Source of the DNA: Maridesulfovibrio salexigens DSM 2638
Lineage (GTDB): Bacteria > Desulfobacterota > Desulfovibrionia > Desulfovibrionales > Desulfovibrionaceae
Assembly (NCBI RefSeq): GCF_000023445.1
Contig: NC_012881.1
Coordinates: forward strand, 3,737,501-3,801,500
Direction of reading: 5' to 3'
DNA: 64,000 bases
In this document: positions 10,489 to 18,800 of the stretch, in pieces
Layout: every line of letters starts with the position of its first letter
How positions within the stretch are numbered: position 1 is the stretch's first letter
Made by a program: the position numbers and the translations under genes
Notes under the pieces: generated by a model
Databases searched by the model: none
Told to the model about the DNA's origin: nothing
Seen by the model: the letters and a program-made list of their open reading frames with translations, nothing else

Positions 10489-10698
10489 TCATGAAAATCC
10501 GGAACCGCCACAACCTCCGGATGGAGGAGCTGCCGGAACAGGATCGGCAAATGAAGCGCCGGAGCTGAACGAAGATAAGAGCTTTTCTGTGTCCGGACTT
10601 TTGCATTCAGGGCACTCAGGTGTTTCGGAACTGGAAGCAAACACCAATTCCTCAAATTCATGCCCGCAAACATTGCATTTATATTCATAGATAGGCAT
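10489..10698 (-). CDS. FmdB-family zinc-ribbon protein
   Basis: A 69-residue protein with the family opening MPIYEYKCNVCGHEFE and a second CPEC knuckle at about residues 29-32, so one four-cysteine zinc ribbon. A Gly-Cys-rich tail ends in GGCGGSGFS. Family members were named after a putative regulator of amide-degradation genes; the true function is unknown. The ATG lies only 3 bases after the stop of the UGA-containing small ORF. Its likely ribosome site is the G-run in that ORF's last codons, so FmdB translation may depend on ribosomes passing the UGA. Confidence 0.88.
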   Translation of the reverse strand: MPIYEYKCNVCGHEFEELVFASSSETPECPECKSPDTEKLLSSFSSGASFADPVPAAPPSGGCGGSGFS

Positions 10699-10701
10699 CT
10701 G

Positions 10702-10854
10702 TTATTTGCCCCCGCAGCCGCCGTTTTTATCGTTGGAACCCTCACGGGGCCCCTTACCGATCTGTCACGGCGCGATTCCCATTTTGGGGATCACCACTTT
10801 CACGATGATGAAAACGACTGCGAACACCGCAATCAATCCAAGTAAATCTGACAT
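10702..10854 (-). CDS. Candidate membrane-anchored small selenoprotein (in-frame UGA)
   Basis: Reading from ATG 10854 (GAGG 7 bases upstream), 29 codons give a protein with one transmembrane helix (residues 4-24). Codon 30 (10767-10765) is TGA. The frame continues for 20 more codons, giving a basic, Gly-rich tail with GGCGG, and stops at TAA 10702-10704. Read through, it is 50 residues with Sec30 and Cys47, C-terminus predicted cytoplasmic. Three points support recoding: a hairpin of bacterial SECIS geometry directly after the UGA, a tail that looks coding with a redox-type Cys, and a 3-base junction to fmdB. Against it: a 29-residue peptide ending at UGA is possible, and no homologue could be searched. 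No selenocysteine machinery gene lies in the window, though Desulfovibrionales commonly have it. Confidence 0.65.
10729..10767 (-). promoter_or_regulatory. Putative bacterial SECIS hairpin following UGA codon 30
   Basis: In the mRNA sense the UGA (10767-10765) is followed after CAG by AUCG (10761-10758). A bulge follows, then a 7-bp stem GGGGCCC/GGGUUCC (10753-10747 with 10741-10735, two G-U pairs) and the loop CGUGA (10746-10742). AUCG closes with CGAU (10732-10729). The apical loop begins 18 bases after the UGA and has G as its second base. Both fit the known bacterial SECIS pattern: G in the first two loop positions and a 16-37 base distance. Confidence 0.6.
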
Positions 10855-10959
10855 CTGAACCTCACAGGTTGTTTATCTACACTTCATTACCAGTTAAATC
10901 TTATATTGCCTGTGTCAATAACTAACCGCAAGAATAATCATGCCAATCAATACTTCAAT

Positions 10960-12666
10960 TTAAACACTGCCCAGATTTACATAAAAACGAAAAGTAGTTC
11001 CCTCTCCAACACTACTGCACACAAAAATTTCACCGCCCATCATGGATACCAACTTGCGAGAAATGGGCAAACCAAGACCCGTTCCTCCGTACTTGCGGGA
11101 AGTTGAGGAATCCGCCTGAGTAAAACTTTCGAATATATAGTTGATCTTATCTGCCGCAATCCCGATACCTTCATCCTTCACCGCAAAAATAAGCTTCTCG
11201 GCCTCCCAATAAATAGAGACAACTATTGTTCCTTCGCTGGTGAATTTTACAGCATTGCTGATCAGATTATTCAACACCTGCCTGATTCTGGTTGCATCTC
11301 CAACAACTTTATCCGGTACATTTTCATCAATATGACAAACCAACTTCAAGCCTTTACGAGCGGCATCCAAAGCAAAAACGCTTACAACTCTTTCGACCAT
11401 CTCTCGAAGTAAAAACTCATGCCTTTCTATCTGTAAATGTCCGGCTTCAATTTTCGAAATTTCAAGGACATCATTGATTATCTCAAGCAGACTTTCCCCG
11501 GCTGTCCCCGCGATATTTAAGAATTCCCGCTGCTCTTCATCGACATTAGTTTCTTTGAGCAACTCCACCATTCCTAAAATAGAATGCATAGGAGTTCGAA
11601 TCTCATGGCTCATGTTGGCCAGAAATTCAGTTTTCACCTTACTGGCAGTTTCAGCCTTTGCTTTTTCTTCCTGTAACAACACCAAGATATCATTTATTGA
11701 TTCTGACAAATCACTAAGTTCATCATTCCCACTCAAACGAACTGTCCTTTGCTCAGGACCGGTAAAATACTCACCCCTCAATTGCTCCTGCACCCTTTTC
11801 ACCCGGGAAACAAAGTACCTATTGAGCACAAAAGTAACAGCAACCCCGAGCAGCAAAAGAGCGGTGCACATGAAAAATAGAAAAACCTTAAACATGGAGC
11901 TTCCTACTTCGTAGGCATCACGGTCCATACCTAAACCTAAAAGCACCAGAGGTTTCTCGAAAACATCCCGCAGAACCATATAACCCTTAAGCTTATCCTC
12001 TCCACTCACCGGTGGATCAAAAAAAACATCCGCACCAGGAACATCTTTTAATTCTCTAAAAAATAGATCCATCTGCAAAGCATTGCCCAGCTTTTCCAGA
12101 TGCCGATCTCCAAAATAACGGCCCATGATCATAACGCCCGCAGGAGTCCCCTCTAAATCACTCTTTAGAACCTTTTGAACGCTAATCTGCATCAGTCTGT
12201 GATCGATTCTGACAAGACCGGTCAAACCTTTATCACCGCATTTACGGATTATTTCATTTCCCTGACATCCTTCGGTAGTAAAGCAGAGTTCTACAGAGTC
12301 AGTTCCTTCTGCGGAGTGTGAAAAATAATATTTGCCCTCATTGTCAAAAAACATGATTAAATCAAGATCAAGGTTAACCAGAACCTCCGGGGTCAAGTTT
12401 GAAATCACATACTGTTCATTGAATTTTTTTAAAAATGAGAATGTATCATCCCACCATGCCCAGTCACGGCAAAGACTTTTCAAAGCCTGGGAATTTTCAT
12501 TAACTGCAAATTCGGCGCGGCTGAGATTTTCTTCTACGAGCACTTTCTCAACCTTGGATATGGCGCGGCTGTTAAGCTTATATACCAGCAGTACACTGCC
12601 CACAAAAACCAGCAGGCAAATCAAAGAGACAATTAAATAGCTTTTACCCTTCAATCCAATTCGCAT
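10960..12666 (-). CDS. CHASE4-HAMP sensor histidine kinase
   Basis: A membrane kinase of about 568 residues. It has a first helix (residues 9-30), a periplasmic CHASE4-type sensor with the hallmark [11 protein letters not shown] near residue 63, and a second helix near 255-280. A HAMP segment, a HisKA domain with [16 protein letters not shown] and a HATPase domain ([31 protein letters not shown]) follow. It has no receiver domain and no response regulator gene adjacent, so its partner is elsewhere. The ATG at 12666 sits behind GGGG; a GTG two codons earlier is also possible. The signal is unknown. A terminator separates it from the cysS unit upstream. Confidence 0.9.
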
Positions 12667-12713
12667 GTACACCCCAAAAAAGATTAGATTTTCATTTATC
12701 TTACCCCTTTAAC

Positions 12714-16378: not shown

Positions 16379-16395
16379 AATCTATACAAATAAAA

Positions 16396-16762
16396 GAGGA
16401 GTCGGACTATAAGCCGGGTCCTGTATCTGCCTTGCGGCAGACGATCATCATTCCTCTAGGATGCATGTTACCATACACCTCAAGCAACCTACCCGAAAGC
16501 TCGGCCGGGCCGGCCTCAAACACTTCCCTATTTGGTCTTGCTCCGGACGGGGTTTACCTGGCCGGATATGTCACCATACCCGCCGGTGGGCTCTTACCCC
16601 ACCGTTTCACCCTTACTCCGATGAATAAACATCGGAGCGGTCTGTTTTCTGTGGCACTTTCCCGGAATCACTTCCGCTGGGAGTTACCCAGCGTCCTGCC
16701 CTTCGGAGCCCGGACTTTCCTCCCCGGCATAAAGCCGCGGCGATGATCCGTCCAACTCCTGA
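16396..16762 (-). ncRNA. rnpB: RNase P RNA, bacterial class A
   Basis: The catalytic RNA that matures tRNA 5' ends. In the minus sense it starts near 16762 with GGAGTTGGACGG. It contains the conserved core GAGGAAAGTCCGGGCTCC, the GGGTAACTCCCAG region and AGGGTGAAACGGTGGGGTAAGAG-type segments (parts only quoted). The conserved 3' block ends with GACCCGGCTTATAGTCC near 16400. Both halves of the P4 core helix are recognisable. The length of about 367 nt is normal for class A. Ends are placed by the terminal pairing and are accurate to a few bases. Confidence 0.95.
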
Positions 16763-18724: not shown

Positions 18725-18800
18725 TGGTGGGCCAACCAGGATTCGAACCTGGGACCATCCGGTTATGAGCCGGGGGCTCTGCCAACTGAGCTATTGGCCC
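18725..18800 (-). tRNA. tRNA with anticodon CAU (probably elongator Met)
   Basis: A complete 76-nt cloverleaf. It has acceptor stem GGGCCAA/TTGGCCC, D-arm with AGCTCAGTTGGCAGAGC, and a 5-bp anticodon stem around loop CTCATAA (anticodon CAT). The T-arm contains GGTTCGAATCC, the discriminator base is A and CCA is encoded. It lacks the three G-C pairs and mismatched first acceptor pair of initiator tRNA. It could instead be tRNA-Ile2, whose CAU is modified to lysidine; the body cannot settle this by eye. Confidence 0.95.

Follow-up and report, generated by a model that had tools for sequence, protein, structure and literature searches.

We report here a short gene of Maridesulfovibrio salexigens DSM 2638 which most likely encodes a selenoprotein and founds a family of mini membrane selenoproteins, a reading to which we give a probability of roughly 0.9 on the basis of sequence comparison. 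An in-frame UGA in this gene is almost certainly recoded, with a SECIS-like hairpin behind it and a protein that would continue for about 20 residues beyond. The call rises above chance because of the comparison with relatives: TGA occupies the equivalent site in each of the 17 genus genomes and in 278 of the 281 homologues that were read. All positions refer to the window, i.e., the whole stretch of 64,000 nucleotides that was analysed, and the features discussed are the following.

10702..10854, minus strand: candidate selenoprotein ORF of 50 residues with Sec at position 30, TAA included (translation with TGA read as U; TGA at the equivalent site in 17 of 17 genus genomes)
10765..10767, minus strand: in-frame UGA, codon 30, read as selenocysteine (TGA in 278 of 281 homologues)
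10735..10753, minus strand: SECIS-like hairpin, 7-bp stem GGGGCCC/GGGTTCC with two G-U pairs, 5-nt loop CGTGA with G at position 2 (folding energy and covariation in relatives)
10789..10845, minus strand: hydrophobic stretch, codons 4-22, followed by the conserved PKxG; putative single membrane helix, judged by eye from the sequence
10860..10863, minus strand: Shine-Dalgarno-like GAGG, 5 nt 5′ of the ATG (sequence)
10489..10698, minus strand: fmdB-type zinc-ribbon gene, its ATG 3 nt (CAG between) past the TAA of the selenoprotein ORF (Pfam and NCBIfam models, adjacency elsewhere)
10960..12672, minus strand: CHASE4/HisKA/HATPase histidine kinase, the upstream neighbour, ending 105 nt before the ATG of the selenoprotein ORF, to which we assign no role (ORF list; Pfam domains on part of the gene)

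The reading frame is laid out as the first-pass annotation had described it, with ATG (at 10854), 29 sense codons, TGA, 20 sense codons, TAA (10704-10702) and then the ATG of fmdB; it runs on the minus strand, which that annotation had left unstated. With TGA read as U the product is MSDLLGLIAVFAVVFIIVKVVIPKMGIAP-U-QIGKGPREGSNDKNGGCGGK* (window:10702-10854:-), and the translation of the frame 5′ of the start resembles that of close relatives. The hairpin likewise has exactly the form given earlier, a 7-bp stem and a 5-base loop that starts 18 nt past the UGA and has G as its second base. The downstream gene matches TIGR02605 (7.6e-18, 64.3 bits against a cut-off of 31.3) and Pfam PF09723 (7e-17, 61.6 bits against a cut-off of 34.4). 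The window also carries, on the minus strand, a class A RNase P RNA at 16394-16759 and a tRNA-Met at 18725-18800.

A protein search gave homologues in all 17 genus genomes searched, and every one of them contains a single internal TGA. For wider searches the profiles A1, A2 and A3 were built stepwise; P23, G26 and C(U)30 are invariant in all 51 rows of alignment A3. Profile matches were obtained in 47 of 149 genomes of the family, two of which (L300 with E 0.002 and L301 with E 0.004) were later judged to be chance matches and set aside, and in at least 170 of 395 genomes of the home phylum, representing 113 of 246 genera, a lower bound set by scoring at most 16 candidates per genome. Further matches came from 29 of 148 genomes of the Nitrospirota-type phylum and from 53 of 82 genomes of the KSB1-type phylum. 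Each of these two phyla is named here after a bin that belongs to it, labelled Nitrospirae and KSB1, respectively; the sampling thus covers three phyla. The genomes are related, and the homologue counts are therefore not independent events.

We first read 265 loci, 183 from the home phylum (among the matches listed, with about 20 of the 170 genomes left out), 29 of Nitrospirota type and 53 of KSB1 type. Eighteen loci were added later (L045, at a contig end, and 17 matches from the family search); 16 of these are homologues, all with TGA, which brings the total to 281. This count leaves out the locus L058, which has TGA, and a weak additional match in G037 (E 0.004). A locus was extracted if it had U or C at the site, preceded by P..G; the sole failure among the 265 loci, L285, was read by hand. 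The neighbour, hairpin and codon-position counts given below refer to the 264 extracted loci or to their 262 TGA genes, without the later 16. Two matches per genome occur in G173, G245, G273, G300, G329 and G525, possibly representing selenoprotein paralogues.

Among the 281 homologues the codon at the Sec site is TGA in 278 cases, TGC (Cys) in two and TAA in one. Were the UGA an ordinary stop, a conserved membrane peptide of 29 residues would end there and the rest would be the untranslated leader of fmdB. The data from this one genome allow for it, as 5 of 60 synonymous-codon shuffles match the hairpin and the open frame past the UGA is no longer than chance; its length is uninformative, with a median of 22 codons against 20 after a true stop. 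The homologues make an ordinary stop hardly credible. Because all three stop codons serve as true stops in these genes (TAA 96, TGA 87 and TAG 80 in 263 of 264 genes, the remaining gene being cut by a contig end), TAA or TAG would be expected at the site in about two thirds of the homologues and is seen in 1 of 281. The search was not blind to such alternatives, since the profile had Cys at the Sec column and the TAA form did turn up. Third codon positions take 46.6% of the changes in the tail, 56.9% of those on the 5′ side of the UGA and 34.1% of those in the 30 nt past the true stop (96 pairs, 95 genes), and the frame past the UGA therefore behaves as protein-coding. The tail mostly holds a Cys and is also kept in genes without a downstream fmdB, and in the two Cys forms (L046 in G051 and L125 in G729) the frame runs through the site and the second Cys is retained. 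On the codon counts and the codon-position bias of the tail we rejected the plain stop codon.

Sec/Cys pairs, which these two Cys forms provide, thus exist among the homologues and are unusually rare; G079, from the same genus as G051, has the Sec form. The single TAA form, L285 in the KSB1-type genome G742, is followed by a family-like tail with Cys, and its genome has SelB; a recent loss of function or an error in the sequence probably accounts for the TAA. Our expectation that the genomes with a Cys form would be without SelB failed, as G051 and G729, and also the TAA-form genome G742, all have SelB.

The hairpin of the window has a folding energy of -9.7 kcal/mol. Taken alone it is weak evidence, since 5 of 60 synonymous-codon shuffles fold equally well. 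The bacterial SECIS plan as set out in section 5 of PMC13188914 has a loop of 3-9 nt, a stem of at least 4 bp, G in the first two loop positions and a distance of 16-37 nt from the UGA, with an energy bound of -7.5 kcal/mol, which the window hairpin passes. In each gene we selected the most stable hairpin whose loop has G at its first or second base and lies 16-37 nt from the UGA, and compared it with 60 synonymous-codon shuffles. The mean energy of the best hairpin was -7.55 kcal/mol in 182 home-phylum genes (-1.68 in the shuffles), -5.68 in 29 Nitrospirota-type genes (-0.90) and -5.96 in 51 KSB1-type genes (-1.71). At most 3 of 60 shuffles reached the real value in 126, 22 and 30 of these genes, respectively, and more than three did so in 84 of the 262. 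When only contiguous stems were scored, a G-loop hairpin was found at -3 kcal/mol or below in 238 of the 262 genes, at -5 or below in 198 and at -7.5 or below in 110.

Base pairing was also followed across relatives at a fixed geometry, which in both successful tests was the commonest one and hence is not independent of the data. In 48 KSB1-type genes positions 2-6 of the stem are paired in 85-96%, and positions 2, 3, 5 and 6 beat all 500 shuffles, unlike positions 1, 4, 7 and 8. Pair 5 is compensatory (CG 25, GC 12, TA 4, GT 1), with 42 of 48 genes paired against a shuffle maximum of 31. In the home phylum (112 sequences) positions 2, 3, 5, 6 and 7 beat all shuffles and positions 1, 4 and 8 do not. 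The subgroup with U-x5-C (40 genes), in which the loop position varies, gave no pairing excess at the fixed geometry tried.

The genome of the window, a single contig of 4,289,847 bases, contains tRNA-Sec (82.5 bits, cut-off 47), SelA (615.3 bits), SelB (384.6 bits) and SelD (337.9 bits), the last carrying one in-frame TGA itself. SelB lies above cut-off in 353 of 395 home-phylum genomes, and the selenoprotein gene is commoner in these (162 of 353) than in the genomes without SelB above cut-off (8 of 42; Fisher p = 8e-4). With SelB above cut-off in so many genomes this co-occurrence is a blunt test. The eight genomes which have the gene without SelB above cut-off are drafts of 40-520 contigs, 76-98% complete. 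Conversely, 191 of the 225 home-phylum genomes without a match possess SelB above cut-off, the absence of the gene being a soft one with at most 16 candidates scored per genome. The genome of the window has another FmdB-type gene about 1.7 kb from selD (G000:C1:696728-699478).

These observations also bear on recoding without selenium, that is, near-cognate read-through with Trp or another residue, or a regulatory pause, with the hairpin as stimulator. A downstream hairpin could indeed be used by read-through as well. We nevertheless consider this very improbable: the hairpin follows the bacterial SECIS plan of PMC13188914 at -3 kcal/mol or below in 238 of 262 genes, the replacement is always Cys (2 of 2 sense codons), the home genome carries tRNA-Sec, SelA, SelB and SelD, and genomes with SelB above cut-off have the gene more often. 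The reading as a selenoprotein, which the first-pass annotation had put forward as a candidate, is thus supported by codon conservation, hairpin, machinery and the comparison across three phyla. That annotation had asked for Cys or TGA at codon 30 and for a conserved stem in relatives, and it had named homologues ending at the UGA, or a genome lacking selB, selC or selD, as observations that would speak against it. We found TGA at this site in all 17 genus genomes and in nearly all homologues, a hairpin in 238 of 262 genes with compensatory pairs at several positions, and the frame, mostly the tail Cys and the SECIS-like hairpin kept across the three phyla; the home genome is equipped with the genes in question.

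The consensus of the family consists of one N-terminal hydrophobic stretch, the motif LP[K/R]xGxxTU, usually a Cys 4-5 residues further on, and a basic tail. Around the Sec of the 262 genes, P is found at -7 and G at -4 in 259 each (both partly by construction), K/R at -6 in 255, V/I at -3 in 243, T at -1 in 205, M at +1 in 132, S at +2 in 120, and Cys at +5 in 161 and at +6 in 42. A Cys anywhere past the Sec is present in 250 of 262 genes; it is absent in the remaining 12 and also in L298 and L299, and the Sec-Cys pair is therefore not universal. Some members of the window's genus have lost the near Cys and carry one in a GGCGG-type tail instead. From their sequences the members are very probably single-pass membrane proteins of roughly 45-60 residues. 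By net charge the members average -0.62 in their first four residues and +2.12 between PKxG and the C-terminus; under the positive-inside rule this would place the tail in the cytoplasm.

With the N-terminus outside and the basic Sec/Cys tail in the cytoplasm, the Sec selenolate and the tail Cys could form a reversible selenenylsulfide. Tethered to the membrane, the protein might then serve as a selenol/thiol relay or sensor in redox reactions, or as a soft-metal ligand, and it may frequently act together with the cysteine-paired zinc ribbon of an adjacent FmdB. A function of the cytoplasmic Sec/Cys tail as redox relay, redox sensor or soft-metal ligand is a tentative proposal of ours, with the odds somewhat against it; for a specific partnership with FmdB they seem even to us.

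An FmdB-type gene is adjacent in 38 of 52 KSB1-type and 48 of 183 home-phylum loci, counts which are lower bounds as a strict motif was used. In the KSB1-type loci it lies downstream on the same strand, at an offset of -14 to +133 nt in 38 of 52 and of -14 to +20 nt in 33 of 52. In the genus fmdB starts 3-4 nt past the stop of the selenoprotein gene in 11 of 17 genomes. The home-phylum genes lie downstream on the same strand in 25 of 183 loci, 14 of these at a distance of 109-231 nt, and upstream in 23, ending 43-239 nt before the start of the selenoprotein gene. Ten genomes checked have 3 to 7 FmdB-type genes each, so that by our own estimate chance adjacency would be well below 1%. The FmdB neighbourhood pointed out in the first-pass annotation thus recurs in the KSB1-type and home phyla; it does not hold throughout, as FmdB stands beside 0 of 29 Nitrospirota-type loci and two genus genomes retain just a stub at this place. 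In these two (L021 and L023) the intact selenoprotein gene is followed at once by a five-codon remnant of fmdB, its ATG and four more codons, and the selenoprotein is therefore kept without FmdB beside it; their genomes, G005 and G008, have four other FmdB-type genes each.

The close spacing in 11 of 17 genus genomes and in 33 of 52 KSB1-type loci would suit a selenium-gated switch, in which the UGA mainly couples FmdB translation to selenium and the start of fmdB is reached only upon Sec insertion. Such a switch appears improbable: in the other home-phylum loci with FmdB, 14 have it downstream at 109-231 nt and 23 have it upstream, it is not beside any of the 29 Nitrospirota-type loci, and conservation of the Sec/Cys motif points to a role for the protein itself. 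A wider proposal, that a Sec-obligate class found across phyla senses both selenium and redox state and that UGA decoding gates translation of an adjacent downstream FmdB, is a long shot; if it were true, one gene pair would report selenium supply and membrane redox state together.

Neighbouring proteins were also scanned with Pfam in the home phylum and in the KSB1-type loci, in scans which miss ORFs under 55-60 residues. For the home phylum, where 167 of 183 loci were used (16 of the genus's 17 were left out), Zn_ribbon_8 was the most frequent family upstream (12 of 110 proteins) and tied for first place downstream (6 of 68). Among 127 KSB1-type proteins we counted DUF72 14 times, DUF6132 11 times, cytochrome c554 and thioredoxin 10 times each and Zn_ribbon_8/FmdB 9 times, the low rank of FmdB being due in part to the filtering of short ORFs. 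The neighbours include FmdB, thioredoxin folds, cytochromes c, DUF6132 and DsbD-like proteins. A DUF6132 small membrane protein with a GCxSGxC-like motif lies beside the selenoprotein gene at L273, as do ten further such KSB1-type neighbour proteins. By sequence clustering the largest neighbour cluster is a histidine kinase from 40 genomes in mixed positions, which we take as generic. At the Nitrospirota-type loci (L096-L124) the gene follows two neighbour clusters, present in 21 and 18 genomes, which from their sequences we take to be rpoA and rplQ.

Metal handling is a serious rival to the redox reading, even if on balance it seems unlikely to us. The Sec/Cys tail would bind Hg, As, Cu or Zn at the membrane and pass it to a zinc ribbon or to efflux. 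According to PMC13188914, several selenoproteins may use Sec to bind a metal; FmdB belongs to a zinc-ribbon family, and 2 of the 127 KSB1-type neighbour proteins are cation-efflux proteins. Against this, the top 25 neighbour families listed contain no consistent metal-resistance neighbourhood, and redox families are commoner among them.

The eukaryotic selenoproteins SelK and SelS have one N-terminal membrane helix, Sec near the C-terminal end and a Gly-rich or basic tail. The likeness of the new family to them would be one of plan only, whereas kingdom, motif and SECIS type differ. With the known prokaryotic selenoproteins it shares the in-frame UGA, a downstream bSECIS-type hairpin, a Cys near the Sec and the Sec machinery. 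None of the 119 prokaryotic selenoprotein families and subfamilies in Table 1 of PMC13188914 is listed with the motif LPKxGxxTU or TUMS or as a mini protein with one helix; as the entries consist of names, motifs and domain ids and carry no lengths, short proteins could still be among them. For 51 diverse members, no NCBIfam selenoprotein model matched at E<=1 (the best match of any kind was ATP synthase subunit B at 0.003) and Pfam gave no relevant match (best 0.012, DUF5337), and the profile matched no PDB chain at E<=1. In searches of CC-licensed PMC papers, none of the titles and abstract starts that were listed describes such a family.

According to PMC12013277, which presents deep-Sep, Cys-containing homologues seem to exist for every known bacterial selenoprotein, and the method of that paper may miss selenoproteins without them. 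The new family differs from these known selenoproteins in being nearly Sec-only, with 278 Sec to 2 Cys forms. Its members are very short, 278 of 281 have Sec, and the plain ORF ends at 29 residues, and the family is therefore expected to escape such methods. The hypothetical selenoproteins DG, DW and DF of the same paper likewise have no known domain and occur in Desulfobacterota; all three have Cys homologues there, and for DF no other TGA homologue is given. The table of PMC13188914 lists them under NCBIfam ids, with GUxG, GxU and no motif, respectively, and no member of the new family matches those models. FmdB has been linked with selenium before, since PMC2398784 reports two Sec-containing FmdB family sequences from the GOS metagenome; there the Sec is in FmdB itself, whereas here it is in a separate membrane protein beside FmdB. 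Selenoproteins as a kind are known, and it is the architecture and the Sec/Cys ratio of this family that appear to be new.

To sum up, a family that would be expected to escape detection is present in at least 170 of 395 sampled genomes of one phylum, which suggests that the selenoproteomes of the sampled phyla are under-counted. It would give FmdB a recurrent partner and add a selenoprotein in which no recognised enzyme domain explains the use of selenium.
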